Below are positions 1 to 26,691 of a stretch of 35,925 nucleotides of DNA, one piece after another. This DNA comes from Elusimicrobiota bacterium. Lineage in GTDB: Bacteria > Elusimicrobiota > Elusimicrobia > UBA1565. Location: contig JACRDO010000174.1 in NCBI GenBank assembly GCA_016212885.1, positions 1 through 35,925 on the forward strand. The letters run 5' to 3'. The notes beneath the pieces were generated by a model. The model was not told the origin of the DNA. It was given only the letters and a program-made list of their open reading frames with translations, and made no database searches. The translations under genes and the position numbers were made by a program. How positions within the stretch are numbered: position 1 is the stretch's first letter; every line of letters starts with the position of its first letter.

Positions 1-230
1 ACGTGCTCGTTGTGCATGAACGTGGCCTCATGCTCGTCCACCAGGCCCAATCCGGCCGGATTGTACAGAAGCGCGTTCGAGTCCCTGGCCAGCGCCGTGT
101 ACGCCCCGCCCATCCCCACCGCCCTGGCGTTCGCGTCCAGGAACAGGAAGTTGAACGGCTCGGCCCCGGCCGCGGCATGCGACAGCCGCGGCCAACTCAG
201 CAAAACCAGAGCCAGAAGCCTCGCCTTCAT
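1..230 (-). CDS. PorV/UPF0164-like outer-membrane protein, N-terminal part (cut by window edge)
   Basis: Reading leftward from an ATG at 230-228 gives 76 codons without a stop. The product opens with a signal peptide (MKARLLALVLLSWPRLSHA). It continues with the hallmark start of PorV/PorQ/UPF0164 beta-barrel proteins: a FLFLDANARAVGMGGAYTAL segment followed by an NALLYNPAGL segment. In that family the glycine-rich AVGMGGA stretch and the NPAGL motif lie in the first barrel strands. The ATG overlaps the stop of the giant protein gene as ATGA, so the two are probably translationally coupled. PorV in Bacteroidetes is the type IX secretion shuttle that hands cargo to the surface; a partner role for the upstream giant protein is inference. 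Only the N-terminus is visible, so the length and subfamily cannot be judged. Confidence 0.8.
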   Translation of the reverse strand, partial: MKARLLALVLLSWPRLSHAAAGAEPFNFLFLDANARAVGMGGAYTALARDSNALLYNPAGLGLVDEHEATFMHNEH

Positions 231-6200: not shown

Positions 6201-9200
6201 TCGGCAAGGAAGCCGGGCCAGTCCACGTAGCCGTTGGGGTCGTTCTCGAACGGAGGCCCGGCCTTGGAGCCCAGGAAGGAATCCATCGTGATCCGAGAGC
6301 CTCCGCCCAGGGCCGCGGCATTCACGTTGACCGCGATGCCGGCATCGCTGAAGTCGATGCGGGAGAAGGTGGAGACCATGGTCGCGCTCAAGAAGCTGAT
6401 CGCCGTGGCCCCGGCAGGGAGGGAGCGGAAGGTCATGGACGCTATGGAAAGGCTTGCGCCCGCGGCTTGCTGGGCTATGAGGACGCCGGTCCCGGCCCCC
6501 TGTACCGTGATGCTGGAGAGAATCAGTTCGCCCGAGTTGGCGGCGTCGAGGTAGACGGCGGCGCCTTGGGTGCCGCCGCTGATGACACTGGAGGAGACGC
6601 TCAGATTGACGCTGGAGTTATACATCCAGAGGCCGCTTCCGGACGTCAGCATCCCCACCAGGACGCTGGAGCTGATGACCGTTCCGGTGGAGCCGCGGAC
6701 ATAAACGGCGGTGGAGCCCTGGATGTAGGAAGACGCGATGGTGTTGGAGGAGGACTGGTAGAGGTAGAGGCCGTAGTAGCCGGTCATGGTGCTGTCCGAG
6801 ATGGTGTTGTAGTCCGCGCCGTCATACAGGTAGGCGCCGGTACCGGCTGGATTTGACATGAAGGAGCGTGTCACCGTGTTTGAATCGCTATTACCGATGT
6901 ACAGGGGGGAGTAGCTGGCGGCATTGCTGGTCATGGTGCTGTCCGAGATGGTGTTGTGGTCAGCGCCCCCGCTCAGGGCGGCGCCGTAGCCGGCCGGGTT
7001 GGACATGAAGGAACGCGTCACCATGTTCGAGTCGCTGTCATCGATGTACAGAGCGGGGTAGCCGCCGCTGGTCATGGTGCTGTCCGAGATGGTGTTGTAC
7101 ACCGCGCCGCCGTCGAGGCGGGCGCCATAGCCGGTTGGGTTTGACATGAATGAGCGCCTTACCGTGTTTGAGGCGTTAGCCCAGATGCGCAGGGCGGAGT
7201 AGAGGAAACCGCCGCCGCTCATAGTGCTATCCAAGATGGTGTTGTAGTCCGCGCCGGTATAAAGGACGGCGCCGTAGCCGGCCGGGTTGGACATAAACGA
7301 ACGCGCCACTGTGTTCGAGTCGCTGCTCCAAATGTATAGGGCGTTGGATCCGTCGGCATTGCTGATCATGGTACTGTCGGAGATAGTGTTGTTGTCTGCG
7401 CCGCCCCCCAGAGAAGCGCCGGTGCCGGCCGAGTTTGACATGAAGGAACGCGTCACCGTGTTCGAGTCGCTGTTAGCGATGTACAGCGCAACGTTACCAA
7501 GGCTGTTGCTGGTCACGGTGCTGTCTGAGATGGTGTTGTTGTCTGCGCCATCATTTAGATAGGCACCATGGCCGGCCGGGTTGGACATGAATGAGCGCGT
7601 CACCGTGTTTGAGTCGCTGTTGGCGATGTATAGGGCGGAGTAGGTGCTGTCGCTGGTCATGGTGCTGTCTGAAATAGTGTTATAGTCCGCGCCGTTATAC
7701 AGATAGGCACCGTAGCCGGCCGGGGTTGTGATGTATGAACGCGTCACCGTGTTCAAGTCGCTATTACTGATGTACAGGGCTTGAACGCCGCCGGTCATGG
7801 TGCTGTCTGAAATAGTGTTATAGTCCGCGCCGGACTCCAGGCGGGCGCCTTTGTCGGCGGGGTTGGAGATGAATGAGCGCGTCACAGTGTTTGAATCGCT
7901 GTCATAAATGTACAGGGCGACGTAAGTTGCGGCATTGCTGGTCATGGTGCTGTCCGAGATGGTGTTGTAGTCCGCGCCGCCATCCAGGAGGGCGCTGTGG
8001 CCGGCCGGGTTGGACATGAATGAGCGCGTCACCGTGTTCGAATCGCTGTTATTGATGTATAGGGCGACGGAAGCTGCGGCATTGCTGGTCATGGTGCTGT
8101 CTGAGATAGTGTTGTAGTCCGCGCCGCCAGCCAGGACGGCGCTGTAGCCAGCCAAGTTGCTTGCAGAAAACACCGAAATCGTATTGGACGACGCCCCCTG
8201 GAGAAAGAGGGCGGAATATGAGCTGTTGTTCGTCGTCGCCGAGCTGTAAGCCGCCGTCGTCATCCTGCTTCCGGCCAGCCAGATACCGTGGGCGTTCTGA
8301 ACCGTGACGCTGGAGTAAGACACCGCGCTCCAGCTCGAAAGGCTGATGCCCGCGCTGTAAATGGCGCTCCCGCCGCTCACGCTCACGCTGCTCAGCGTCA
8401 CGTAGGCCGAGGAGGCCTGCACGCCGTAGGGCATGGGATTGGCAGCGAGGACACTGAGGTTCTGCAGGGTCACGCTGGCGTTCTGGATGAGGAATCCCGC
8501 GGTCGAAAGCGCCGGAGGCGAGACCGCCGGCGCCGAGCTCGCGAAGCTCGGGTCCGACATGATCTTGAGCTGAAAGCCGTTGTTGGCGAACCCCTGGACC
8601 GTCACCTGCTCGCTGTAGGTCCCAGTATCCAGGATGACCACGCAGGCGGTCGTGCCCAGGCTCTTCGGCAAGGCGTCGAGGGCGGCTTGGATGGAGGCGA
8701 AGTCCCCGGAGCCGTCCTGCCTTACGTTGAAGCCCATGCCGCAGCCTGGGGGCAGGTAGCGCGGGACAGTTGAGCCCAGCACGAGCCAGCTGAAATCCGT
8801 GCCACCGGTGGAGCTGTAGGCCTGCACGCGGAAGTAATAGATCGTGTTTGGAAGCAGCCATGTGAGGCTCGCGAACGTATTGGCGGTCAAGGATGAGGCG
8901 GCCGTTGGGATGAACGTCGGCATCGTGGAGGCTTCGACCAGGTAGGTCGCGCCGGAACCGTTGAACCAGGTCCCCGCGGTCCCCGACGACCAGTTCACGG
9001 TCAGGCTCGAGGCGAGCACGTTCGGGAACATCGGCGTCCCGGGCAGAGGCAAGCTGGCGACGGCCAGGGTATAGGTCGAGACCATCGGCGACTCCGCGGT
9101 CTCCATGCCGGCCGCGTTGCGCGCCTTGGCTTTGAAAGAATACTGCTTATTGGGAAGAAGTCCGGCGAACGTCTGGGAGCGGCCGGGGTCGTACTCCTCG

Positions 9201-12200
9201 TTTGCGGCCTCGTAGCCCCCGGACTGCGACCCCACGGCGCATATCCGGCCGCGGACGGCCGCCGCGGCGAACCCGTAGCGCGGCGAGGGTATCGCGGCCC
9301 GGCTTGTCCACGTGTTGCCGGCCACATCGTACTCCTGGTTGGCGTACAGGCTGCCGCTCCCGCCCAAGGCGTAGAGCCTGCCTCCGACAGCCGCGGCCGC
9401 CAAGGCGGTCGCCGGGGTCGGCATCGCGGCTTTGCCCGTCCAGTTGTTCGCGCCGGGGTCGTACTCCTCGTTCGCCGATACCGCGACTCCGTTGGAGCCC
9501 CCCACGGCGTAGAGCTTGCCCCCGACCGCGGCCGCGGCCAGGCTGTTGCGCGCGGTGGGCATCGAGGCCTTGCTTGACCAAGTGTTGGAGACCGGGTCGT
9601 ACTCCTCGTTGTTTGCGGCAGGGCTGCCGCCGCTGTCCGAGCCCCCCACGGCATAGAGCCTGCCGCTGATGGAGGCGGCGGCCAGGTAGTAGCGCGGGGT
9701 GGGCAGGAACGCTTTGCCAGTCCAGGCATTGGCGGCCGGGTCGTACTCCTCGTTGGCCGGCATGGCGGCCCCGTTGTAGCCCCCGACGGCGTAGAACCTG
9801 CCCCCGATCGCGGCGGCGGCCACGCCATGCCGCCCCGTGGGCATCGAGGCTTTGCTCGACCAGGAGTTGGCGGCCGGGTCGTACTCCTCGTTGGCCGACA
9901 AGACGAGGCCGTTGGACCCGCCGACGGCGTAGAGCTTGGCTCCGATCGCGGCGACGGCCGAGAGGTAGCGCCAGGTGAGCATTGAAGCCTTGGCCGTCCA
10001 GACGTCGCCCGTGGAATGCCAGCTCCCGTAGGCCCCGGTGGTCAGATTGATCCCGGAGAGGCCTTTGCTGAGGTTCGAGAACGCGGGCTCCGGCGCGTAG
10101 GCCGAGGCCGTGATCGAGCAGGTGGATATCTCGTCGAACACGACGCTCGCCGGGGCCTCGATGGCCGTGACGGTCGAGCCGGCCGCCAGAGTGTTCGGGA
10201 CCCCGTTCCAGTTTAGGGTGGCGACGCGGAAATAGCAGGTCGTGTTCACGCTCAGGCCCGTTAAGGTCAAGGTGCTCAAAGAGATGTTCGCGGTGGCCGA
10301 GGAGTAGAGGACCCCGGAAAAATTCGCGGCCGTGGACCCCTGGAGCACATAGCCCTCGGCCGTGCTCGAGGAGCCGGCCTGGGCTGCGGTCGGGAGGGGA
10401 TTCCAATTGACGGTCGCGCTCGTTGCGAAGACCCTGTAGAAGGCGGGGTTGGCGATGGGATTCGAGATCGTCGACGTGGCTCCGAGGGACCCTGACCACG
10501 GCCCCGCGCCCGCGCAGTTCTCGGCCGCGGCTCGGAAGTAGTAGGTGGAATTGGGCCAAAGCCCCGTGAACGTGAATGAGGAGCCCGTGAGCTTTATGGC
10601 CAAGCCGTAGGCCGGATTCCCGCTGAAATCGGAGGCGGTGGAAGCGTGGATCAGAGAGTTCGCGACCCCGGGCTCGGCGCTGGGCGTCCACTTGGCGGTG
10701 AAGCTGGAAACATAGACGTTGGTGAAAGCCGGCGAGGCCGCGGTCGGGGAAACGGCCAATGCCGGGGGGAGAATCTGCACCGACACGAAGTCGGAGGGAA
10801 TGGCGTTGGCCATGACGAAAAGCTGGTAGTAGCCGCACTGCAGGCCCGAGGGGACAGTGAAGGCCAGGTTGGTGGAGGATTGGTAGTTCTGGTAGTTGGT
10901 CTGCTCAACGGCGCCGTAGATCGAGGTGGAGAGGTCGATTAGACGGCCGCCGCCGGCCATGGTCCCGTAATTGCCGGAGTCGTTCGGCATGAGATAGACT
11001 CTGGGGAGATTGGCGGAAGAATCCGCACAGCCGCCGCCTGAGCCCCCGTTCAGGCCGGTGAAGGTGGTCCCGGTCACGGCATAGGTGTCGCCCTGGGTCA
11101 AGGCGGCCGGAAACACCGCCGACCCATTGACCGTATTGATCTTGGGCTGGACAGAAGAGCTGATCGCGGAGTAGCTGTACTCCGTGTAGGACGCCGTTTC
11201 GGCCGACGAAAGCACCCCGCCGTCATAGCCTCCGGCCGCCAGGACTTTCCCATTCGGAAGAAGCGTGGCCGTATGATCCTCTCGCGCCGCCCCCATGGGG
11301 CCGGCCGAGGACCAAGCTCCGGCGGTGGGATCGTAGAGCTCTGCCGCGGAAGTCGCCGCGCCGTTATAGCCTCCTGCGACCAGAACCCTGCCGCTGGGCA
11401 GCAGAGTAGCCGTGTGATCCCTGCGCGCCGCGCTCATGGAGCCGGTCGCGGCCCATGTCCCAGCCGATGGATCGTAGAGCTCCGCCGCGGAGAGATATGC
11501 GAAACCGATGTCGCTGGCGCCTCCCGCGGCCAGGACATTGCCGTTGGGTAGTAGCGTGGCCGTATGGTAGCGGCGCCGAGAAGCCATCGAGCCGGTCGCG
11601 GCCCATGTCCCGGCCGCAGGGTCGTAGATCTCCGCCGTAAAAAGGGTTTCCCCGCCGCTCCAGCCTCCTGCGACCAGGACATTGCCGTTGGGCAGCAGCA
11701 CGGCCGTGTGCCCATCGCGCGCGGAACTCATGGGGCCGGTCTCTGACCAAGTCCCGGTAACGGAGTCGTAGAGTTCCGCCGTGGAAAGATTCGAGGCGCC
11801 CGCTCCGCTGCCTCCTGCGACCAGGACTTTCCCGTTGGGCAAGAGCGTAGCGGTGTGGTTCTGGCGGGCCGTAGTCATGGAGCCGGTCACGGACCAAGTC
11901 CCCGCAGAGGGGTCGTAGAGTTCGGCCGCAGCCATGGCATCGCCATCATATCCTCCTGCGGCCAGGACCTTGCCGCTGGGCAGCAGGGTGGCCGTGTGCC
12001 AGTTGGTGTGGAGCGAATTCATGGAGCCGGTCCCGGACCATGTCCCGGCGATGGGGTCGTAGAGCTCCGCCGTGATGAGCCAGCCCGCGGCCAGGACTTT
12101 TCCATTGGGGAGAAGCGTGGCCGTGTGATATCTCCGTGCCGAACCCATCCCCCCGGTCCCCTCCCACGCCCCAGCCGACGGCCTGAACACCTCCGCGCTG

Positions 12201-13270
12201 GAGAGATACCCGTCTCCAGTGGTCCTGCCGCCCACCATCAGCACCCGGCCGTCCGGCAGGAGCGTAGCGGTGTAGAGCTCGCGCGCCGCGCTCATGGGCC
12301 CGGTCGATGTCCAGGCCCCGGCCGAGGGGTCGAAGACCTCCGCGCTGGAGAGATAGCCCCCGAGGTTCCCTCCCCCCGCGGCCAGGACGCGGCCATTGGG
12401 GAGTAGCGTCGCGGCGTGGAGCCCCCGTGCCGCGGCCAGAGCCCCGGTCGATGACCATGTCCCAAAGGCCGGATTGTAGAGATCCGCGCTGGAGAGATAA
12501 AAATCGCCGTTGTTGTATCCCCCCGCCGCCAGCACCAGCCCATTGGGAAGGAGCGTGGAGGCATGATACTCGCGCGCGGCCGACATGGGCCCGGTCGCGG
12601 ACCATGTCCCAGCCGACGGATCGTAGACCTCAGCCGCGGCGATGATTGCCCCTCCCGTGCTCTCCCCGCCCGCGGCCAGGACCTTGCCGCTCGGAAGAAG
12701 CGTCGCGGTGTGCCAGTGGCGCGCGGCCGACATGGACCCGGTCCCGGACCATGTCCCGACAGAGGGGTCGTAAAGCTCCGCGCTCGAGAGATAGTTCGTC
12801 CCGTCGTATCCCCCGGCCGCCAGCACCTTCCCGTTGGCCAGCAGGGTCAGGGTGTGGGTGCGGCGGGCGGCCGAGAGGGCTCCGGTCCCGGCCCAGGTCC
12901 CGGACGCGGGATCATAGAGCTCCGCGATCGAGAGCGCGGTCCCGCCCGTGGTCTCTCCGCCAACGACCAGGACCTTGCCGTTGGGCAGAAGCACGGCGGT
13001 GTGGTAGCCCCGCGCGGCGGCCATGGGCCCGGTCGCGGCCCAGGTCCCGGAGGCCGGATCGTAGAGCTCTGCGCTGGAAAGATATGTTCCGCCTCCGGAA
13101 GACCCGCCGGCCACCAGCACCTTCCCGCTCGGCAGGAGCGTCGCGGTATGAAGTCCTCGCGCCGCGGACATGCCGGATGCGCCCAAGAAGCCGGAGTACG
13201 CATCGCCGGGGAATAAGGATATGAGGCCGGCAGCCAAGAAGAATCGGCGAGCGCTCGGGCGGATGGACAT
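227..13270 (-). CDS. Giant secreted multi-domain repeat protein (kelch, FnIII, beta-helix, T9SS/FlgD-like C-terminus)
   Basis: 4347 residues in one open frame. The start is followed by a signal peptide (RPSARR n-region, FFLAAGLISLF core). Approximate domain order: 14 kelch-like repeats of about 47 residues with HTATLLPNGKVLAAGG and AELYDPSAGTW motifs (27-693); an IPT-like segment (693-843); two fibronectin-III modules (846-1046); six kelch repeats of another type with KLYAVGG and NEEYDP motifs (1086-1360); one FnIII (1363-1503); three pectinesterase-like beta-helix modules, each opening with a V-x-x-DG-x-x-x-[FY]-x-[ST]-IQ segment (near 1505, 2503 and 3017, the last ending near 3597); FnIII modules (3600-3870); Ig-like domains; and a FlgD/T9SS type A-like end (about 4246-4347) with YPVPFKPN, ITIYTVTGQKV and ASGVYLAVIKS. 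The likely role is a surface or extracellular carbohydrate- or adhesion-related protein. No catalytic triad was identified. The stop overlaps the PorV-like gene as ATGA. Confidence 0.93.
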   Translation of the reverse strand: MSIRPSARRFFLAAGLISLFPGDAYSGFLGASGMSAARGLHTATLLPSGKVLVAGGSSGGGTYLSSAELYDPASGTWAATGPMAAARGYHTAVLLPNGKVLVVGGETTGGTALSIAELYDPASGTWAGTGALSAARRTHTLTLLANGKVLAAGGYDGTNYLSSAELYDPSVGTWSGTGSMSAARHWHTATLLPSGKVLAAGGESTGGAIIAAAEVYDPSAGTWSATGPMSAAREYHASTLLPNGLVLAAGGYNNGDFYLSSADLYNPAFGTWSSTGALAAARGLHAATLLPNGRVLAAGGGNLGGYLSSAEVFDPSAGAWTSTGPMSAARELYTATLLPDGRVLMVGGRTTGDGYLSSAEVFRPSAGAWEGTGGMGSARRYHTATLLPNGKVLAAGWLITAELYDPIAGTWSGTGSMNSLHTNWHTATLLPSGKVLAAGGYDGDAMAAAELYDPSAGTWSVTGSMTTARQNHTATLLPNGKVLVAGGSGAGASNLSTAELYDSVTGTWSETGPMSSARDGHTAVLLPNGNVLVAGGWSGGETLFTAEIYDPAAGTWAATGSMASRRRYHTATLLPNGNVLAAGGASDIGFAYLSAAELYDPSAGTWAATGSMSAARRDHTATLLPSGRVLVAGGYNGAATSAAELYDPTAGAWSSAGPMGAAREDHTATLLPNGKVLAAGGYDGGVLSSAETASYTEYSYSAISSSVQPKINTVNGSAVFPAALTQGDTYAVTGTTFTGLNGGSGGGCADSSANLPRVYLMPNDSGNYGTMAGGGRLIDLSTSIYGAVEQTNYQNYQSSTNLAFTVPSGLQCGYYQLFVMANAIPSDFVSVQILPPALAVSPTAASPAFTNVYVSSFTAKWTPSAEPGVANSLIHASTASDFSGNPAYGLAIKLTGSSFTFTGLWPNSTYYFRAAAENCAGAGPWSGSLGATSTISNPIANPAFYRVFATSATVNWNPLPTAAQAGSSSTAEGYVLQGSTAANFSGVLYSSATANISLSTLTLTGLSVNTTCYFRVATLNWNGVPNTLAAGSTVTAIEAPASVVFDEISTCSITASAYAPEPAFSNLSKGLSGINLTTGAYGSWHSTGDVWTAKASMLTWRYLSAVAAIGAKLYAVGGSNGLVLSANEEYDPAANSWSSKASMPTGRHGVAAAAIGGRFYAVGGYNGAAMPANEEYDPAANAWTGKAFLPTPRYYLAAASISGRLYAVGGSDSGGSPAANNEEYDPVSNTWSSKASMPTARNSLAAAAVGGKLYAVGGSNGVAVSANEEYDPGANNWTGKAAMPTPATALAAAAVGGRLYALGGSGSLYANQEYDVAGNTWTSRAAIPSPRYGFAAAAVRGRICAVGSQSGGYEAANEEYDPGRSQTFAGLLPNKQYSFKAKARNAAGMETAESPMVSTYTLAVASLPLPGTPMFPNVLASSLTVNWSSGTAGTWFNGSGATYLVEASTMPTFIPTAASSLTANTFASLTWLLPNTIYYFRVQAYSSTGGTDFSWLVLGSTVPRYLPPGCGMGFNVRQDGSGDFASIQAALDALPKSLGTTACVVILDTGTYSEQVTVQGFANNGFQLKIMSDPSFASSAPAVSPPALSTAGFLIQNASVTLQNLSVLAANPMPYGVQASSAYVTLSSVSVSGGSAIYSAGISLSSWSAVSYSSVTVQNAHGIWLAGSRMTTAAYSSATTNNSSYSALFLQGASSNTISVFSASNLAGYSAVLAGGADYNTISDSTMTSNAAASVALYINNSDSNTVTRSFMSNPAGHSALLDGGADYNTISDSTMTSNAATYVALYIYDSDSNTVTRSFISNPADKGARLESGADYNTISDSTMTGGVQALYISNSDLNTVTRSYITTPAGYGAYLYNGADYNTISDSTMTSDSTYSALYIANSDSNTVTRSFMSNPAGHGAYLNDGADNNTISDSTVTSNSLGNVALYIANSDSNTVTRSFMSNSAGTGASLGGGADNNTISDSTMISNADGSNALYIWSSDSNTVARSFMSNPAGYGAVLYTGADYNTILDSTMSGGGFLYSALRIWANASNTVRRSFMSNPTGYGARLDGGAVYNTISDSTMTSGGYPALYIDDSDSNMVTRSFMSNPAGYGAALSGGADHNTISDSTMTSNAASYSPLYIGNSDSNTVTRSFMSNPAGTGAYLYDGADYNTISDSTMTGYYGLYLYQSSSNTIASSYIQGSTAVYVRGSTGTVISSSVLVGMLTSGSGLWMYNSSVNLSVSSSVISGGTQGAAVYLDAANSGELILSSITVQGAGTGVLIAQQAAGASLSIASMTFRSLPAGATAISFLSATMVSTFSRIDFSDAGIAVNVNAAALGGGSRITMDSFLGSKAGPPFENDPNGYVDWPGFLAEPLLARFTTPNRYLIAGTTVSISTATQQPIPTPIDVELFSFWGDPTPSTWAYHTVSVKSLDSTTTRAGTDPTKPVKDGVDWRPIGPGYSALPVNIDIGFTRARFYIWDTRLGTATLQASVVRQDGFAMPVITQPEYITPGSAGLPAGCGEGRNVKQDGSQHFTTIQAALDSLDPGLSTKTCVVIRDTQTYNEQVTIQGFDTSGFRLNILADPSFISSAPVISPPALSTAAFLIQNDSATLQNLRIVPAGAVSYGVKASSAYFTADRLVVDDAGGFIGEAGLAVSSWSAVSNSSISVPSATGLRIEGAGSSVSDTTAAIQTSLWHFALRLSNASGNTITRSFFSGDKAVRFESSNANTLSLTTATASATALSLASSSTNTIAGCAISGAVYGLYGDNANHNVVSRSTLASAAVPLYLAYSASNAITSSLMRSETTYGAYLHWAANYNTIANSTITSRAPGGLPLTSALFISGGSSNTIADSYIQGATAAWVTGGAAGTQIQSSVLATTHPACSGLWLSGSAVNLSLSSNTLIGGSQGAGARVEDGAGGDLVLSSSTVRGGRWGLIVAGPSSGASLSIATMTFQDLSAGATAIQFLSGVFVSTFSNVSFAGQGLAVNVDGSGLGAGARISMRSASGPKAGRVFENDPYNRVFWLGYIGDFPPGCATAVGVRKDGDADYASIQTAVDGSPKALTGDSCVVIRDASTYGEQVTVMGFANNGYQLKIMADPGFVSSAPVVSPPALSTAAFLIQNASVTLGHISIAPADAVSYGIQISSPYVVLNSVSVDGGSKIGLAAVALSSWDRISLSTITCGAAGARALYAAGASSITVQDSILSSAQGSAAYLRSARNISILRSTMTSGDPAGAGLWLADTSSSTISDSAIWNSGGSAARIDGNVSYNAILRSTMTANAQGYYALSIVNSSSNTVSDCALLNRRGDGAYLSAARYNAIERSAITSNWMAYRALYLNGASRNTISDSFLYNPFGYGAYLSANSDRNTILRSTAAGNSSSEAALHLAASASNTITQSFVLNPSGHAAVLGPGSDLNSVTLSTLTSSGESSNALYIEGNSSNSIQGSYLQASTAVYVRDSTGTVFSGDILMATHTAGSGLGLGGGNVNFTLISSTVAGGRQGAGIYLSGGNTGELALLADVVAGGRYGILIASQTANLTISTITFQSLAPGAAALVLAPGRRILTFSRLNFADPGIAVNVDAGFLEPGSHVMMISAFGSRAGPLYENDPNSLVDWSDFNYEIYAEGFTDVFTSSLSVLWSSSFPSGTRYYAQLSTASDFTGAVLSSATYGLAATFTGLSPNVPYYARASYSPSGPFTILGTAMPALLPGPPGAPSGTALGVSSIAWTWSAASDAVGYRILQASNLGAQLGTSAVPHFEQIALATNTAYGIVAGATNPSGLGPLSPSATAYTLAAPPSGAAVSSVEGASATLSWSLNTNPAWTIAEVERSVTGAAFISVFKGSATAYTDYYLLGCTTYTYRVRNRNGDGIPSAYGHAADFTTKGSTPLPPGGLSAESLAGRRIRVSWEPSPSEGIVGYRLYYDSGTGTLDTAALAVFSSTVTSYLTEPLSSGVSYKFALRAINRCGVEEQNARLLAAATAVESLTGVQAAIKVPQGGKKIMGNRVTVLAELIRGDAGQTKRIRFQYKGVAEADWHDIVVPVQDINHPNPATDFPYLVHWDVTAVSTGDYQLMAAATDIFGAADTSPPSIVVSVSANPADCDINETSLGAGMVLKQQVVHNSVENSIAAADEGSKQVTKVVIPAEALDAGTVTVSVVNNSAGGLVSQPGINAIGVSVEITLSNGQSRLAGGRTAALELYYPDEDDDGIVDGKGVRVENLELRTHDPATGEWRKEFASTVDRTNKKITGYTPHFSLFAVVAPMFADLSSLTVYPVPFKPNNAIADDGVPYDSGIANSGIIFNNLPDRATITIYTVTGQKVKHLDSRGAVTVPWDVTNEGGQDAASGVYLAVIKSPGQKAVVRKIAVIR
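6770..8130 (-). repeat. Ten tandem ~138-150 bp coding repeats in the first beta-helix
   Basis: Ten near-identical units begin at about 6782, 6931, 7070, 7218, 7366, 7510, 7657, 7795, 7939 and 8088, each marked on the plus strand by a close variant of ggtcatggtgctgtccgag. Each encodes 46-50 residues with the pattern ADYNTISDSTMTSNA, ALYI-x-NSDSNTVTRSF and MSNPAGYGA, which is two or more coils of a right-handed beta-helix. Unit lengths are all multiples of three within small changes, so the frame is kept. DNA-level similarity well beyond what the protein needs suggests recent duplication or gene conversion. Residues are roughly 1713-2167 of the giant protein. Confidence 0.9.
9190..10015 (-). 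repeat. Six-unit second kelch propeller in the giant protein
   Basis: Six units share W-(T/S)-x-KA-x-(M/L)PT-x-R at the start, then a hydrophobic AAAA stretch, GG-(K/R)-LYAVGG and NEEYDP-x-x-N. This is a classical kelch pattern distinct from the N-terminal block, so the two propellers have different origins. Six units fit a single six-bladed propeller. Confidence 0.8.
11190..13190 (-). repeat. Fourteen kelch-like coding repeats at the N-terminus of the giant protein
   Basis: Fourteen units of about 141-150 bp encode the consensus (S/P)M-x-x-AR-x-x-HTATLLP(N/S)GKVL-x-AGG followed by AELYDPSAGTW-x-x-TG. Fourteen units would fit two seven-bladed propellers, which is inference. The unit starting near 12100 is shortened, missing several residues after AAGW. 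DNA similarity between units is visible but lower than in the beta-helix block. Confidence 0.85.
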
Positions 13271-13408: not shown

Positions 13409-14521
13409 TCAGTAGTTCTTCCAAATCAACCAAGACTTGAGGAAGGGGTTGACGAACTTGTACTCGCCCTGATGCCGGTAAATGATTTTCAGTTGAACCA
13501 GTCGGTTGAGCGCCTTCTTTACAGAGGCCGGCAAGGTGAGGCCAATTCCATGAACAAAGGCGGACGATTGGGGCGCCTTGCCTCCCATACGCGCCAAACC
13601 TGCCAGACACTTCAACTGCTGACCGGTCAGCTGGACAAGCACGGATTCATACCCCTTCGACTCGCGAGCGTAGATCAGTTCAAGCGCTGCGCCGATATTC
13701 GCTTCGCGCATCGCGTCCTTGTAGGAAGTCGTTTCCCACAGCGCGCCGCAAAGCTCTTGGACATCGCCAGGCACGGACTCCGCAATTTCGACCACCCTCT
13801 TCATGAGTCCGCTGTCCACAGACCTTTTTCCCAGTGTAAACTTGTCTGCCAGAAACCGCGCGAACGCGTCCGTATCGAGAGGACCGACGTCCACCGAGAC
13901 TGCGGACTTGAAGAAAGCGCTTTCTGGGTCGGTGAATATTTCGCTCATCTGATTGCGCACGCTGCCCGCGAAGATGTAAGCCATGTCCTTGTGAAACTGA
14001 ATCCTGCTCCTGAGAATGGACAGGGTCGCTTTGGCGTCCGGCAGGTTCAGGATGTCCTGAAACTCGTCAAACACGACCACAAGCGGCGTCTTCTTGTGAA
14101 CGCTATGGATTAAATCGAGCAGACCGTCAATCGAGTCTGGCCGCATCCGAACGGCAGCGTCCAGTGATACGGACGGCTGCCCGGTCACGGGATCGACAGA
14201 AACAACCGGTCTGAGTTGTGAAACCGACTTGAGCACCCTCTCAAGGAATCCCGCCTGCTGTTCCATCGAAATCAAGGCCTTGACCATGCGTTTGCAGAGA
14301 TCGTCGGCGGTCTTGATTTCCAGCATATCCACATACAACATGCGCAGTCGCTTCATTTGTCTGACGGATTCATAGATGAGCGATGTCTTGCCCATCCGTC
14401 TTTCCCCTTGGATCTCCACATTCTGGCCGGACCTGATGAATCCTGTTAGTTGCTTCAGTAGTGCGGGCCTGGGGCAGAAATCGTCTGCGCTGACCACGCG
14501 TCCATACTTGAATGGGTTCAT
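13409..14521 (-). CDS. AAA+ ATPase of the ATPase_2 (archaeal-type/STAND-like) family
   Basis: 370 residues. The N-terminus NPFKYGRVV and the P-loop GERRMGKTSL (about residues 39-48) followed by Walker B VVVFDEFQD are typical of the ATPase_2 family, also annotated as archaeal ATPase or ORC1-like. A later FAGSVRNQM stretch resembles sensor 1. The C-terminal ~80 residues (LTGQQLKCLAGLAR through YRHQGEYKFVNPFLKSWL) look like a winged helix, a usual arrangement in this family. AGGAG lies 6 bases before the ATG. The gene stands alone, is less GC-rich than its neighbours, has its own operator-like promoter, and is enclosed by 16-bp direct repeats. Cellular role unknown; such ATPases often act in signalling, defence or mobile contexts, but nothing here shows which. 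Confidence 0.85.
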   Translation of the reverse strand: MNPFKYGRVVSADDFCPRPALLKQLTGFIRSGQNVEIQGERRMGKTSLIYESVRQMKRLRMLYVDMLEIKTADDLCKRMVKALISMEQQAGFLERVLKSVSQLRPVVSVDPVTGQPSVSLDAAVRMRPDSIDGLLDLIHSVHKKTPLVVVFDEFQDILNLPDAKATLSILRSRIQFHKDMAYIFAGSVRNQMSEIFTDPESAFFKSAVSVDVGPLDTDAFARFLADKFTLGKRSVDSGLMKRVVEIAESVPGDVQELCGALWETTSYKDAMREANIGAALELIYARESKGYESVLVQLTGQQLKCLAGLARMGGKAPQSSAFVHGIGLTLPASVKKALNRLVQLKIIYRHQGEYKFVNPFLKSWLIWKNY

Positions 14522-14592: not shown

Positions 14593-14608
14593 GGTTGTGT
14601 CAATACAA
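14593..14608. repeat. Right copy of the 16-bp direct repeat flanking the ATPase gene
   Basis: GGTTGTGTCAATACAA. This copy covers the last two codons and the stop of the glycosyltransferase gene (stop at 14602-14600), so any insertion event used the 3' end of that gene as target. Confidence 0.75.
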
Positions 14609-15727
14609 CTCCAGATACCGCGCGGCGACGCGGTCTATGGAGTACCGCGCTTCGGCATCAGCCCTGGCTGAGCGGCCGAGCCGGAAGGCCAGGCCGGACT
14701 CCGTGAGCAGTTTGACGATCTGCCGGCGCTCTTCCGCGGGGTCGTTGGGATCGAAGAGCAGGCCGGTTCTGCCCTCCGAGACCGCCTCTCGGGTCCCTCC
14801 GACGCGGCTGGCCAGCACCGCCAGGCCCGTGGCCATGGCTTCGAGCAGGGCGTTGGAGAGCCCTTCCGACACGGAGGGCAGGACGAAGATGTCGGCTGCC
14901 GCGTAGAGCTTCGCGATGTCGTGCGTGGGCTCCAGCACCTTGGCGCGGCCCTCCAGGCCCAGCCGGGAGATTTCCTCGCGGATGGCGCCTTCCTCGGGCC
15001 CGGAGCCCGCCATGAAGAAACTGGCTTCCGTCTTCGCCTCGCCAAGCGCCTCGGCGAAGGATCTCAGAAAACCGCATAGGCGCTTCTCCGGGGCGAGCCT
15101 GCCCACGTAGAGGAACAAGAGCCCCGGCCGGCAGAGGCCGCGGCGCAGGGCGATCTTCTCCTCCGCCTCCGGAGGCCGGTAGGTCTTCAAGTCCACGCCG
15201 TTGGGGATGAGGGCCGCCTCCGCGCCGATCCCCTCGCGCAGCTCATCGAGCAGATCGCGCGCGACGCAGACGAACCGGGGCTTGAGCCTCTTGAGCAGCC
15301 AGAGCTTCAGCCGGCCGGGACGGGTCTTTGAGGACGCCGCGATCTCTCCGATCCCCCGCCCCCCGCCGATCTTGACGACGGCGCGCTTCTTAAGCAGGCG
15401 CGCCGCCAGGGCCGCGGCGATGGCCGGTGAGCCGGCCAGATGCACGTGGACCGCGTCGTAGCCGATGGCATTCGCCATGAGGAAGGCGAAGCTCGACAGG
15501 AGGAAGACGGCCGAATCGATGAGCGGCCCGGCCCCGCTGAAGGCGGCCAGGCGCCTGACCAGGATACCGGAAACGAATTCCCGCGGGGCAAGCCCGTCGA
15601 GCCGCCGGGTCAGGATCATGACCTGCGCGCCCTGCGCCTTGAGGGCCTTGGAGAGCTCCAGGGCCTGCTTCTCCGCCCCGCCGATGTGCGGATAGAAGTT
15701 CGGGGTGAGCATCACGACCCGCTTCAT
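14600..15727 (-). CDS. GT4-family glycosyltransferase
   Basis: 375 residues. The N-terminal Rossmann part has PNFYPHIGGAEKQALELSKA, the acceptor-side signature of GT4 enzymes. The C-terminal half has LFLYVGRLAPEKR, then FVLPSVSEGLSNALLEAMA with the E-x7-E motif, and VGGTREAVSEGRTGLLFDP, which contact the nucleotide-sugar. It would transfer a sugar from an NDP- or GDP-donor to a lipid-linked or surface acceptor at the cytoplasmic face; donor and acceptor cannot be read from the sequence. The start at 15727 was chosen because GGAGGGGG lies just before the ATG and the ATG overlaps the methyltransferase stop as ATGA. Last gene of the flippase-methyltransferase-glycosyltransferase set. Confidence 0.9.
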   Translation of the reverse strand: MKRVVMLTPNFYPHIGGAEKQALELSKALKAQGAQVMILTRRLDGLAPREFVSGILVRRLAAFSGAGPLIDSAVFLLSSFAFLMANAIGYDAVHVHLAGSPAIAAALAARLLKKRAVVKIGGGRGIGEIAASSKTRPGRLKLWLLKRLKPRFVCVARDLLDELREGIGAEAALIPNGVDLKTYRPPEAEEKIALRRGLCRPGLLFLYVGRLAPEKRLCGFLRSFAEALGEAKTEASFFMAGSGPEEGAIREEISRLGLEGRAKVLEPTHDIAKLYAAADIFVLPSVSEGLSNALLEAMATGLAVLASRVGGTREAVSEGRTGLLFDPNDPAEERRQIVKLLTESGLAFRLGRSARADAEARYSIDRVAARYLELY

Positions 15728-16746
15728 TTCCCCCTCCTTCCCAGGAATCCGACCTTCGGGACCATGCCGTGGGCGAGCTGGCCGAGGATCTCGAAGCCGG
15801 CGGCCGCGAACCAGGCGCTCACCTCCTCCTTGGTGTGCTTGCTCTGATACGGCGGGGCGAGCCAGTCGAAGTTCTCCTGGAGGCGGACCCGGTAATCCGG
15901 ATGCGCGGAAAACGTGGCGTATTTGAGCAGAGGCAGGGCCCCGAGCGCGGCGAGCGGGTGGCAGAGCGCATAGAGCAGAGGCACCGGGAGGCGGGTCGTG
16001 AAGGCACGCAGGAGGTCGCTCAGGACCATGCGCGTCCAGACAACGAACCACGCCAAGGGCAGGACCTCCTTGAGCCACTCGCGGCCGCCCCGCAAGGGAT
16101 TCGTCGAAAAGCTGCGCCAGGACCCCGGCCGTCCGTACACCCAGAGGGTCAGAAGCCCCTTCGGCTTCACCAGGGCTCCGAGCCGCTTGAGCGCAGCCTC
16201 CGCGCTCTTCGTGTGATGGATCACGCCGAGGCTGTAGACCACGTCGAAGACCTTGGGCCTGAAAGGGGGATTGAGAATGTCGCCCTGCACCAGGTGCAGC
16301 CTGGGGGAGCGTCGCGCATCCCCGACGAGCCTCTGCAGGCTCTCCGAAAGGTCGAAAGCCACGACTTCGGCCCCGAGCTCGAGCGCGATCCGGGCATAGC
16401 GTCCCATGCCGCAGCCGCCGTCCAGGACCAAGCGGCCCTCCCAGGCGTTTTCTGGCAGCTGCGTCTCCGTGAGGAAGACGGAGCGGTCCTCGGGCATGGC
16501 CCCGGGATAGCGCAGCCACTCCCAGCCGAAGCTCTCCCCTGTCCTGCGCACGCGCGCCTCCGGGGAGGCGTCCGCGAACATCTGCGCAATGCCTTGGGCG
16601 ATCGGATACTCCTTGGAGCATAGCCTGCAGGCCAGGGCCCCGTCCTGCATGTCCTCGCCCTCCCTTGGCATGGATTCCAGGCGCGAGAACGAGAGCTCGC
16701 CGCGGCACGCCGGACAGACCAAGAACGGCAGAAGAGAGAGCTTCAT
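15724..16746 (-). CDS. Class I SAM methyltransferase with N-terminal Trm112-like zinc ribbon
   Basis: 340 residues. The N-terminal ~55 residues carry CPACRG and CRLCSKEYPI, a four-cysteine Trm112-like ribbon. The catalytic domain has the SAM-binding motif I VLDGGCGMGRYA, an acidic residue after AEVVAFD, and FDVVYSLGVIHHTKS as motif IV/post-IV. The C-terminal ~130 residues are unassigned and partly hydrophobic. Similar ribbon-methyltransferase proteins are common in surface polysaccharide clusters, where they methylate sugars or lipid carriers; the substrate here is unknown. The ATG overlaps the upstream stop as ATGA, and its own stop overlaps the glycosyltransferase ATG. Confidence 0.87.
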   Translation of the reverse strand: MKLSLLPFLVCPACRGELSFSRLESMPREGEDMQDGALACRLCSKEYPIAQGIAQMFADASPEARVRRTGESFGWEWLRYPGAMPEDRSVFLTETQLPENAWEGRLVLDGGCGMGRYARIALELGAEVVAFDLSESLQRLVGDARRSPRLHLVQGDILNPPFRPKVFDVVYSLGVIHHTKSAEAALKRLGALVKPKGLLTLWVYGRPGSWRSFSTNPLRGGREWLKEVLPLAWFVVWTRMVLSDLLRAFTTRLPVPLLYALCHPLAALGALPLLKYATFSAHPDYRVRLQENFDWLAPPYQSKHTKEEVSAWFAAAGFEILGQLAHGMVPKVGFLGRRGK

Positions 16747-17741
16747 AATCTGTTCGTTTCCGCGCGCGCCTCGCCGAGCTTGCGCCCCAGGCCGGCCAGG
16801 CTGTAGCCGAACCGGTGCAGGAACAGGATCCCCAGGCTCGTCACTACGGCGTACATCACCAGGTGGATCAGCGCCGCGTACCCGATGGACGACTCGGCGG
16901 AGTAGCCGAAATGGACCAGGAGAGCCTTCACCCCCGCCTCGAAGTTGCCGAAAGCCCCCGGCATGGCCGGAAGGGCGCAGGCGCCCGCCGCTGCCGTCAA
17001 AACGGCGACGCTTCGCAGGTAGCTCAGCGCGGGGTCGAAACCCAGGGCTTGGGCCGTAGCCCAGTAGAGGCACGCGTCGCAGAGCCAGAGCGTGAAGCTC
17101 AAGCCCGCCACGGCCGCGGCCCGGCCGGGCGAGCGCAGGGCCCGGGTGCCCAGGATCAGCTCCTCGATGAGCCGGTGCAGGCGCGGATGGCGGGTCTGAA
17201 GGCGCCGCCAAACCTCGAAGTGATCGAGCGCATGCTCGATCGTCGTCACGCCGAAAAGCACGAACACGGCGCAGGCAACTGCCAGGAGCACGCTGCGGCG
17301 CAGGGCCTGGGAGATGACGTCGCTGAGCCAGGCCGAGCCGACGCCGAAGAGGATGAGCAGGGCCGTGGCGTCGCAGAGCCTCTCCACCAGGATCGTCGAG
17401 AGGGCGCTCCAGACCGGGATGTCGAGGGCGATCCCCGTGAAGTAGCCCCGCGCGAACTCCCCCAGGCGCAGGAACAGCAGGTTGTTGAGGCCGAGCCCGA
17501 CCGATTCCAGCTTGAACAAGGTCCAGGCGCTCGTCTTTACGACCGGCTTAAGCAGGAGCTTCCAGCGGACGGCGCGCACCCAAAGGTCGAAGACCGGCAG
17601 AGCGAAGAGAGCCGGAAGCCACTCGATCCTCGTGCCGCGGAGGATGCGAAGGACCTCGGTGAAATCGACGTTGCGGAACGCGAAGAAGAGCAGCGCGAAG
17701 CTGATGGCGGCCGCGGCAACGACCGGGACCGCGCGCTTCAC
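16743..17741 (-). CDS. Flippase-like integral membrane protein (LPG synthase TM/AglD2, UPF0104 family)
   Basis: 332 residues with several hydrophobic segments, from AVPVVAAAAISFALLFFAF at the N-terminus through the C-terminal YAALIHLVMYAVVTSLGIL. The family signature is visible as NNLLFLRLGEFARGY (N-x-x-x-P/L-x-R-x-GE-x-x-R), followed by a conserved ERLCD segment. Members include the membrane half of lysylphosphatidylglycerol synthase and AglD-like proteins of dolichol or lipid-linked sugar metabolism. The initiation codon is GTG; GGAG lies 5 bases upstream and belongs to the terminal inverted repeat of the intergenic element. It heads the set with the methyltransferase and glycosyltransferase and is separated from the YfhO pair by 199 bases. 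Confidence 0.85.
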   Translation of the reverse strand: MKRAVPVVAAAAISFALLFFAFRNVDFTEVLRILRGTRIEWLPALFALPVFDLWVRAVRWKLLLKPVVKTSAWTLFKLESVGLGLNNLLFLRLGEFARGYFTGIALDIPVWSALSTILVERLCDATALLILFGVGSAWLSDVISQALRRSVLLAVACAVFVLFGVTTIEHALDHFEVWRRLQTRHPRLHRLIEELILGTRALRSPGRAAAVAGLSFTLWLCDACLYWATAQALGFDPALSYLRSVAVLTAAAGACALPAMPGAFGNFEAGVKALLVHFGYSAESSIGYAALIHLVMYAVVTSLGILFLHRFGYSLAGLGRKLGEARAETNRL

Positions 17742-17890
17742 CAGTGCTCCGACCGCGCCATAATCGCCCTTTTGGAGGCCCAGATTCGAGCCGGATGCAA
17801 GGAGCGACGAGCGAGGATAGTTTGAGCTATCTGAGCGAGGAGCGACGCAGTAGCCGGCCGAAGATGGGCCTCCCCGCTCATAAGGAAAAT

Positions 17891-17919
17891 TTTATATAGA
17901 CTCCGATGGGTTTCCGCAA
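17891..17919 (-). promoter_or_regulatory. Possible promoter inside the 200-bp element, facing the flippase gene
   Basis: TTGCGG (17919-17914) is followed after 17 bases by TATAAA (17896-17891) on the minus strand. This stretch is clearly AT-rich in a GC-rich region. It would give the flippase-methyltransferase-glycosyltransferase genes their own transcript with a leader of roughly 145 bases. Confidence 0.35.
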
Positions 17920-17938
17920 TAGCGGGGCGCGGTCGGAG
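17901..17938 (-). terminator. Hairpin directly after the second YfhO-like gene
   Basis: CTCCGA (17901-17906) pairs with TCGGAG (17933-17938), and an inner CCGC-AATA-GCGG stem sits in between. On the minus strand the hairpin is followed by TCTATATAAAATTTT, so it could act as an intrinsic terminator for the pil-yfhO transcript. It competes with pairing of the longer 17-bp terminal repeats. Confidence 0.4.
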
Positions 17939-17940
17939 CA

Positions 17941-19773
17941 CTAAAACATCCTCCGGGCCCGAGCCAGCCACAGAGCCGCCGCGGCCGCGTTGGCCAGGAC
18001 GAGCCACGGCCAGAGCGTGGGGCCGAAGCGGAAGTCGGCCGTCCAAGAGCGTCCTCCGGAGGGCAGCTCCACGGCCTGGAAGAGCCCCTCCTCCCGGGAA
18101 ATCTCGGCTCTGCGTCCGTTCAGCCAGACCTTCCATCCGGGGAAGAACGGCATCGCGAATATCATCCGAGTGCCGCTGGAGCCGCTGATCCTCCATCGAT
18201 CGGGCGAGAGCGCCGAGACTTGCGCGGGGCGGCCGTCCGAGAGCCGCGCAAGGGGCAATGCGCCCGGATTGGGGCTCAAGGCGCCGTCTGGACCCAGCAG
18301 CCAGCGGACTCCAAGCGCGCGCAGGGCCCCGCGGTCCGAAGGCCACATCAAGACCCGGCTTGGGTCAACTGCCCCTGGATGGGCCGCGCGCAGGATGAAT
18401 TCCGTGTAGTTCTTCAGGTAGAACGCCTCGTAGCCGTTCGCGTTCATGGCCCGGTAGAGCATGGCCTTGTTCGGATTGGCCAGATCCGGGTCCGTGATGA
18501 ACCGGACCGCTTGGCCCGCGAGCCGGCGGGCGAAGGCCTCGTTGCGCGACAGGAAGGGCCGGGGATCCTCCGCATAGACGAATCTCGCGGCCCAAGGCCC
18601 GAGGTCCGCGAAAACGACGGCGAGCGCCGCGGCCTTGGCCCAGCGGGGCAGGATGCGCTTAGACCGCAGCTTCAATGCAGCGGCAGCTGCGGCAAGCAGC
18701 AATCCCCAGAAGAGCAGCAAGCCGAACCGGGCCGGCGCCCTCAGCAGGCCGAAGATGGGCCAGTTCGCGAGCCGCGGGAGCAGGGGATTATGATCTCCTA
18801 ATGCCGCAAAGACACCGAGCCCCGCAATCAGCCATGGAGCGGCTCCGAAAAGGCTTCCGGCCGGGGTTCCGGACCTGAGGAAGAGGCCGGCTGCGGCGAG
18901 AATGGCCGCGGCCCAGCCCACCGTCGCGGCCTGGAATTCGAAGAATGTCGAGGGCAGGCCCGGGTAGCTTCCATCCAGAGGGTTTCCGAAGGCGCCCGGC
19001 AGGACGAGCGCTGCAAGGGACCTGGGGGGGAGCGAGTAGGCTCCGGCCAGCGCCGGAGGCCAGCCGACCCGGTTGGAGGCCCCGAGGAACTGGGCTGTCA
19101 GCACGAGCTGGACGCAGGCCAAGCCCGCGGCCAGCCCCGCGGCTTTCGCGAACACGGGAGCGCGCGCGCGAAGATCGAAAAGGGCGAAGACCGCCAGGCC
19201 GACGGCGTTGACCGCGGCGTACTGCGCATGCCCGGCCAGCAGCTGCAGCGCCCACGCACCCGCCAGCATGGCCGGCCGCCCGGAAAGGAGGGCGAGCCAC
19301 GTCCAGGGCACCCAGCTCAGCGCGGCGAGCTGGGTCGGGATCCCCTGCGGGATGCGGTAGACCAGCATCGGGGAAAGCGTAAAGGAAGCCGTAAAGAGGA
19401 ACGCCCAAGCGGCGTCGAGCCGCGCCCGCCGCAGGAAGAGCTGCATCCCCAGGGCCGCCAGCGCGAGGTGGAAGGCCGCGTGCAGAGTGAACGCGCAGCC
19501 CGCGGGCAGCACATCGAAGAGCACGGAAGGCGGATAGAACAGCGCCGCCTGCGGATTGGCCAGGAACGGCAGGCCCGAGAAGACGTAGGGGTTCCAGAAC
19601 GGCATCTGCCCGGCCATAAGGCGCGAAGCGGCGAAGTGCCTCAGCGGCAGGTGGTAGGCGTAGAGATCCCCGAAGTTCCCGAGGATGAGCGATGTCGACG
19701 AGAGCGCCGGAGCGAGCAGAGCCGCCAGCAGGGCGGCGAGCAGGCCGAGCAGAACGGCGTCCTTGTTCCTCAT
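17941..19773 (-). CDS. YfhO-like polytopic membrane protein (second copy)
   Basis: 610 residues with about ten or more hydrophobic segments and a C-terminal ~150-residue soluble part ending in one more membrane helix (LWPWLVLANAAAAALWL). The N-terminal pattern, a first helix followed by GNFGDLYAYHLPLRHF, FWNPYVFSGLPFLANPQA and LFYPPSVLF, matches the first extracytoplasmic loop of YfhO/GT-C-fold proteins, where aspartates near the first helix are usually catalytic. The gene overlaps the related upstream gene as ATGA. GT-C enzymes use polyprenyl-phosphate sugars, so a role in glycosylating pilin or a surface polymer is plausible but inferred. Its TAG stop abuts the 17-bp terminal repeat of the 200-bp element. 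Confidence 0.8.
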   Translation of the reverse strand: MRNKDAVLLGLLAALLAALLAPALSSTSLILGNFGDLYAYHLPLRHFAASRLMAGQMPFWNPYVFSGLPFLANPQAALFYPPSVLFDVLPAGCAFTLHAAFHLALAALGMQLFLRRARLDAAWAFLFTASFTLSPMLVYRIPQGIPTQLAALSWVPWTWLALLSGRPAMLAGAWALQLLAGHAQYAAVNAVGLAVFALFDLRARAPVFAKAAGLAAGLACVQLVLTAQFLGASNRVGWPPALAGAYSLPPRSLAALVLPGAFGNPLDGSYPGLPSTFFEFQAATVGWAAAILAAAGLFLRSGTPAGSLFGAAPWLIAGLGVFAALGDHNPLLPRLANWPIFGLLRAPARFGLLLFWGLLLAAAAAALKLRSKRILPRWAKAAALAVVFADLGPWAARFVYAEDPRPFLSRNEAFARRLAGQAVRFITDPDLANPNKAMLYRAMNANGYEAFYLKNYTEFILRAAHPGAVDPSRVLMWPSDRGALRALGVRWLLGPDGALSPNPGALPLARLSDGRPAQVSALSPDRWRISGSSGTRMIFAMPFFPGWKVWLNGRRAEISREEGLFQAVELPSGGRSWTADFRFGPTLWPWLVLANAAAAALWLARARRMF

Positions 19774-25539: not shown

Positions 25540-26691
25540 TCACACCCAGTCTTTGGGCCTGCGCAGAGCGAGCCCGGCCGCCACGCCGAAACTCGGCAGG
25601 ATCTCGGCCGGGATCTCCGCGGGCTGGCCGAGGAAGCCCAGCGGATTGAGCTGGCTGACGGGAACCTTGAGCTCCCCGGTCAGGTGCTTGGCCAGGTTCT
25701 TCATCCGGGCGGAGCCTCCCGCCAGCACGATGCGCGCGACCGAGCGCTCAGGCCCCTGCGAAAGGTAGAAATCGACCGACCGATGGACCTCGGCGACGAG
25801 GTCCTTCATGACGCCCGTGACCGCCTGGGAGACCGCCAGCGCGTCGCGGTTGCCCTCCGCGAGGGCCTTCTCCTTCTCCCCCTGGTCGAGCAGAAGCCCG
25901 AAGGATTTCTTCGCCTCCTCGGCTTTCGCGGCGTCGCACTGCAAGGCCTTCATGGCCGCCTTCGTGAAAGTGGCGCCGGCGATGAAGATGTCGCGGACCA
26001 CGCGCGTGACGCCCGCCTCGATGATCGAGAGGTTGGTCGTCGTGTGGCCGATATTCAAATAGAGCGTCGAACCCCCCCGCTCCTGTCCGGAATCCGTCCG
26101 CTCGTGCACCCCCTCGAGGGCGAACGAGTCCACGTCGATGATCGCCGGCCGCAGCCCCACGGCCTCCAGCACCTCCACGCGCGCCTGCACCATGTCCTTC
26201 TTGGAGGCGACCAGGACCGTCTCCATCTTCTTCTGGCCTTCCTCCATGACCTCGCTGAGGATGTGGAAGCTGAGCTGGACGTCCTTGATGTCGAACGGGA
26301 TGAACGGCTCGGCCTCCGAGGCGAGCGTCTCGCGCAGCTCGCTCTTCGTCAGGAGCGGGAACTTGACGTAGCGGACGATGACGGAGTTGCCAGAGATCGC
26401 GGTCGCGGCGCGCTTGACCGGGAGAGCCTTCTGGATCAGGAAAGCGCGAAGCTGGTTGATCGACTGCTGCCTGCGCTCGTCCGGAGCCGCGTCCGCCTTC
26501 GATTCGATGGGCAGATGCCCCCAGGTCTTCAACCGCATCTGGCCCCCTTCTTCTTTGAGCCAGACGACCTTGATGGCGTAGCTGCCGATGTCGATGCCGA
26601 GGATGTCCTGCGGCCCGAGGAACATCGAACCGAGTTTTTCCTTGACCTGCTTGAGGTCAAAGGCCTTCAGCTTGTCTGTGATCCCTGCCAT
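25540..26691 (-). CDS. pilM: Type IV pilus actin-like ATPase PilM
   Basis: 383 residues. The actin/FtsA-like fold is shown by a phosphate-1 loop DILGIDIGSYAIKVVWL near the N-terminus, a GSTLYLNIGHTTTNLSII phosphate-2 segment, and an ARIVLAGGSARMKNLA adenosine motif near the C-terminus. The family-typical LRETLASEAEPFIPF stretch follows the first lobe. Cytoplasmic PilM binds ATP and the PilN tail, forming the inner ring of the pilus machine. First gene of the pilMNOPQ operon; pilA, pilB, pilC and pilT are not in the window. AGAGG precedes the ATG by 2 bases. Confidence 0.95.
   Translation of the reverse strand: MAGITDKLKAFDLKQVKEKLGSMFLGPQDILGIDIGSYAIKVVWLKEEGGQMRLKTWGHLPIESKADAAPDERRQQSINQLRAFLIQKALPVKRAATAISGNSVIVRYVKFPLLTKSELRETLASEAEPFIPFDIKDVQLSFHILSEVMEEGQKKMETVLVASKKDMVQARVEVLEAVGLRPAIIDVDSFALEGVHERTDSGQERGGSTLYLNIGHTTTNLSIIEAGVTRVVRDIFIAGATFTKAAMKALQCDAAKAEEAKKSFGLLLDQGEKEKALAEGNRDALAVSQAVTGVMKDLVAEVHRSVDFYLSQGPERSVARIVLAGGSARMKNLAKHLTGELKVPVSQLNPLGFLGQPAEIPAEILPSFGVAAGLALRRPKDWV

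Follow-up and report, generated by a model that had tools for sequence, protein, structure and literature searches.

The known bacterial MITEs (non-autonomous DNA transposons), such as Correia and ERIC/RU, are short, gene-less, multi-copy, intergenic sequences bounded by inverted repeats, which form a stable stem in transcripts and lie near coding ends (PMC10969869). Within the IS1182 family of insertion sequences, a 4-bp target repeat has been recorded for ISPse1 (PMC3281130), and IS1272 is known to replace stem-loops without any target duplication (PMC5678879). Here we analyze a candidate element of this kind in a contig of an Elusimicrobiota bacterium (GCA_016212885.1, JACRDO010000174.1; the whole analyzed stretch of 35,925 nt is referred to as the window). 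Overall, we estimate at about 90% the probability that it is a degenerate MITE of an Elusimicrobiota family, which was mobilized in trans, inserted between two genes and then decayed. No Elusimicrobiota MITE family was described in the open papers searched, so that the family (as opposed to the MITE kind itself, which is known) is apparently undescribed. Its unusual traits are a branched covarying core and the presence of two end types on one core.

The element and its insertion site

The features of the locus are as follows (coordinates of the window).

17743..17942, plus strand (left arm first): probable degenerate MITE with type A ends and 17-bp terminal inverted repeats; copies elsewhere start at exactly 17743
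17743..17759, plus: left terminal repeat AGTGCTCCGACCGCGCC, the conserved end being formed by its outer 13 bp
17926..17942, minus: right terminal repeat, a perfect complement of the left one
17760..17774, plus: inner left end ATAATCGCCCTTTTG, its right-side partner being lost here (from alignment with full-length copies)
17774..17873, plus: left arm GGAGGCCC...GGGCCTCC, which contains an internal hairpin and is the segment most widely common to genomes
17874..17925, plus: middle arm CCGCT...AGCGG (from the alignment), not followed by the right arm that intact copies have
17741..17744, plus: decayed target copy CCAG, corresponding to CTAG in the majority of copies
17941..17944, plus: decayed target copy CTAA, which holds the reverse complement of the YfhO-like stop TAG
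17747..17750, minus: Shine-Dalgarno-like GGAG within the element end, 5 nt before a GTG start
16743..17741, minus: downstream gene, flippase-like membrane protein of 332 aa (PF03706, LPG_synthase_TM), GTG start at 17741
17941..19773, minus: upstream gene, YfhO-like membrane protein of 610 aa (weak Pfam match that falls short of the curated cut-off)

The original prediction of a 200-bp gene-less element with perfect 17-bp terminal repeats was exact in its coordinates: the two ends (17743-17759 and 17926-17942) are complementary at 17 of 17 positions with 166 nt between them, and the list of open reading frames places no gene inside. A chance inverted repeat could be ruled out, since first-order Markov simulations of the window (n=200) gave only 6 such arm pairs, that is ∼0.03 expected per window against one observed. 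As a single strand, the element folds far better than its dinucleotide shuffles (z of -5.7 for DNA and -6.2 for RNA), and the two sides of the left arm (17774-17788 and 17859-17873) are 87% complementary. No intrinsic terminator was found within the element. A sigma-70-like promoter match (TTCACC-16-CATAAT, window positions 17737-17764, plus strand; 0.1 expected in shuffles) spans the element's left boundary in antisense orientation relative to the operon.

The insertion separates two genes that are contiguous in relatives. In the minus-strand series from pilM (25540-26691) to the glycosyltransferase gene (14600-16708), the 199-nt spacer is, as had been claimed, the only large gap, all others being below ∼40 bp. 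The claim that the element touches the stop codon of the YfhO-like gene also holds: this gene ends in TTTTAG at the element boundary, and its TAG (17943-17941) has two bases in common with the element. YfhO-like homologues adjoin the flippase-like gene in relatives, and the predicted coupling of the two genes was borne out by comparison of the syntenic locus, where in seven relatives (G002, G004, G005, G013, G014, G017 and, if the upstream of two possible starts is used, G016) the genes overlap by 4 nt (ATGA) with no element between them. Since the same two genes overlap without an insert in all seven, the junction appears to be occupied only in the window lineage among the genomes compared, and its pre-insertion sequence was probably TTTTAGTG or TTTTAGGTG. 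In the same-genus genome G001, a secretin gene directly precedes the flippase-like gene, and no YfhO-like match occurs in the stretch compared. Elsewhere in the window (227-13270, minus strand), an open frame of 4347 aa, which contains long tandem repeats within the gene (period ∼138-147 bp), would encode a giant repeat protein and adjoins an AAA ATPase gene (13409-14521).

Distribution of copies

BLAST analysis of the own genome (a fragmented assembly, 91.6% complete) yielded 26 matches to the element at ∼22 loci, several of them beginning at its exact first base. Approximately half of these matches are located no more than 250 bp from a contig end, in keeping with the tendency of repeats to break assembly. 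Relatives of the element were detected in 21 of the 57 genomes searched (the own genome and 20 others), in agreement with the anticipated existence of further copies with the same ends. Their presence is patchy, as no copies were found in G001 of the same genus and many in G004 (same family) and in G027, G028 and G041 (same order). The named genomes that match the end pattern are groundwater MAGs of Elusimicrobia, and a search for this pattern in viral contigs gave no match. The MITE-type reading of the original prediction is thus upheld by multiple copies, common ends and a syntenic site that is empty in seven relatives; the opposite pattern, a single-copy sequence conserved at this locus, was not what we found. 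One amendment is required: copies elsewhere are mostly ∼260-400 bp long, and the 200-bp element is an internally deleted derivative of an element of ∼300-400 bp.

End types and target sites

A single interior is combined with two types of ends. The left arm of the window copy is also present in copies with type B ends, with ∼84% identity to those in the same genome. Type A ends, carried by the window copy, consist of a CTAG flank followed by TGCTCCGACC. CTAG flanks both sides in 8 of 15 type A copies and, being palindromic, makes a 2-bp (TA) duplication indistinguishable from a 4-bp one; the target flanks of the window copy differ (CCAG and CTAA). Type B ends start with GGGCTCG, GGCCCTG or similar. 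Their flanking trinucleotides are identical in 26 of 31 copies (TAA, TTA and, once, TCA) and inverted in none, and therefore type B generates a true 3-bp TNA target duplication.

Type A ends are preferentially located at stop codons: in 29 of 42 cases, their own TAG terminates a reading frame that runs for 88 codons or more, compared to 157 of 591 other CTAG sites, which were taken from the same loci (p 4e-8).

A palindrome of 23 bp, AGGGCTCGTAAAGTACGAGCCCT, flanked on either side by TAA (L310:1501-1529; C115:54221 of the own genome), represents a type B element reduced to a remnant by loss of its entire interior. Similar arrangements, in which type B ends face inward at close spacing, occur in G027 (C22:40087-40138) and G028 (C35:104663-104723).

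One could tentatively view the cloverleaf core (see below) as a selfish module that has been re-ended, once for CTAG and once for TNA targets, each end exploiting a different transposase, with the fold, kept by template switching, itself needed for movement; we regard this extended scenario as doubtful.

Search for a cognate transposase

The original prediction called for a transposase with matching terminal repeats, and here the outcome was negative for the window element and positive only for a sister element. Searches for type A ends (TGCTCCGACCG), both exact and near, covered the own genome as well as 54 relatives and 235 class members and returned only MITE copies or chance matches, none of them associated with a transposase. 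Such a partner is not part of the definition of a MITE, because it can be lost. An IS630/Tc1-type partner was considered and dropped, as Pfam DDE_3 was not found in the own genome. At the loci of PF01609, IS1182 and DUF4096 transposases, a scan for paired ends recovered only ends resembling type C (L139, L149 and L212) and one resembling type B (L144). The former belong to three IS1182-type insertion sequences of Elusimicrobiota:

L139:596-2131 (G010), transposase above the NCBIfam cut-off for IS1182
L149:1371-2809 (G041), transposase above the NCBIfam cut-off for IS1182
L212:1376-3219 (G025), covering an IS1182 match above cut-off at G025:C16

Their ends, CTAGGAGCCTG(TCCGAGTAAT / AGCAATTAG), match those of the small type C elements L073 and L074 with 83-95% identity over 17-30 bp. 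IS1182-matching ends are thus present for type C and absent for type A, and for this reason the window element was not classified as IS1182-derived. CTAG-flanked insertion sequences with DDE_Tnp_1 transposases also occur (L199:1304-2415 in G041 and L204:1196-2912 in G010); their ends (GCCTGAA...CAGTTGG) are unrelated to those of the window element.

Based on these observations, the history of the locus may be outlined as follows. The element would have been mobilized in trans by a DDE transposase (probably of IS1182 or IS5 type) that recognized the outermost ∼13 bp on each side and inserted it at a CTAG-like site, formed by the YfhO-like stop codon TAG at its junction with the flippase-like start codon GTG. 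The element end and the target copy would leave both frames intact, the genes passing from overlapping to 199 nt apart. Loss of the right arm and decay of the target copies would have followed, and on account of these two changes the window copy is probably immobile.

Fold and covariation of the family

Intact copies (∼300-400 bp) fold as a cloverleaf in which a terminal stem and left, middle and right arms meet at a four-way junction. The complete form is seen in L016:498-806 (fold of -199.5 kcal/mol, z -14.7) and L009:499-880, with a terminal stem of 32 bp; terminal repeats of full-length copies span 32-36 bp. The outermost 13 bp are largely conserved in sequence, and the next 19 are kept mainly as pairing. 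The window copy retains the left and middle arms and has lost the right arm as well as the right end's inner half; for this reason, its perfect repeat is limited to 17 bp.

In an alignment of 13 copies, two-sided changes affect 68 of 107 pairs, compared to 34 in shuffles and 12-29 in slid controls, the latter contrast being inflated because the structure was derived from the same 13 copies. A selected RNA should favor G·U pairs on the transcribed strand. Of the 383 terminal stem cells, 371 are Watson-Crick, one is G·U and two are A·C and, counted by column, G·U is not favored over A·C in any arm, although few columns are available. RNA-level selection on the arms was rejected: cell counts do favor G·U in the inner arms, but they stem from few inherited columns and the preference is gone by column. 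Because of this lack of G·U preference, the covariation points, if weakly, to what is probably a DNA-level homogenization of the arms rather than a selected RNA. Template switching is reported to create and maintain hairpins (PMC8794818), and the arm pattern fits such a process, in which copying between matching arms at the DNA level would keep them alike. Symmetric protein-binding ends could contribute to the pattern in the terminal stem.

Alternative explanations

A structured regulatory RNA or operon leader native to the locus and controlling the flippase-like gene would account for the strong fold (already evident in the RNA z-score), for the position directly before a start codon and for the strong covariation across the family. 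We consider it very improbable, as the element is multi-copy, is missing from the locus in seven relatives, lacks one arm in the window copy and covaries without a by-column preference for G·U; a single-copy regulatory RNA was rejected on the basis of the copies and the empty sites. No Rfam match was obtained in the window at gathering scores, and for five copies examined at E≤1 the only match was a sub-threshold sX14 (L059:2333-2427) outside the element. Spread of a REP-like palindrome by a Y1 (RAYT) transposase via single-stranded DNA would explain the folded arms, whose perfect pairing is kept while the sequence changes, as well as the CTAG tetranucleotide at the foot of the stem. However, REPs are 20-40 bp long with a tag at one end (PMC3733652), compared to 270-400 bp and symmetric ends here, the true target duplications of type B are expected of DDE rather than Y1 transposition, and type C ends match DDE insertion sequences, which makes this mode of spread extremely improbable.

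A different question is whether the MITE has been domesticated, so that translation of the flippase-like gene now relies on its GGAG as ribosome-binding site. The part of this earlier claim concerning the origin of the motif stands: GGAG is contributed by the element end (minus strand, 17750-17747) 5 nt before the GTG at 17741. Moreover, the ancestral start overlapped the upstream stop, so that at the present distance of 199 nt some new signal is needed. The claim that the insertion was thereby recruited into expression of the downstream gene fared less well, as GGAG is paired with a probability of 1.0 in the 17-bp stem of the predicted co-transcript and is part of the conserved end in all type A copies. 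Its release by a terminating ribosome was also not supported, since a constrained fold with the first arm held open did not free it. Domestication is therefore unlikely in our judgment, and any effect on the downstream gene (through GGAG in the element end or the long stable stem predicted in the mRNA) would be a by-product of the MITE insertion.

Significance and comparison with known systems

A MITE family that is widespread in one order, easily scored by its ends and preferentially located at stop-codon CTAG sites may provide markers of transposition in uncultured genomes, and is a likely cause of contig breaks in such assemblies. With strong arm covariation and no G·U preference, the compensatory changes are probably due to copying from arm to arm at the DNA level and not to RNA function, and covariation in MITE arms should serve as a warning for covariation-based RNA discovery. 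A core common to two end and target types makes end-switching of MITEs directly testable.

Among the known systems, Correia and ERIC/RU are among the closest, with the same set of traits (short, gene-less, multi-copy, intergenic, inverted repeats). The elements described here differ from them in the host phylum, in a four-way branched core of 270-400 bp with covarying arms, in the CTAG or TNA target and in a single core that is combined with two or more types of ends. With respect to the IS1182 family, the ends of the sister MITEs (L073/L074) match IS1182-type ends in the same order; in contrast, type A ends were not found on any IS1182 element, the MITE interior has no real similarity to insertion sequence interiors, and the target duplications of type B differ from the mode of IS1272. 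The layout of type B corresponds to that of a 951-bp IS5 family element with a DUF4096 transposase (L144, G024; ends AGAGCCTATCCCAGTAA, TAA on both sides), but the ends are only loosely similar and this element is absent from the genome of the window. Finally, REP/BIME sequences (GTAG- or CGTC-tagged) are alike in their palindromic structure, intergenic position and stem-foot tetranucleotide, whereas the present elements are ∼10 times longer, carry the tag at both ends and, in type B, duplicate their target.
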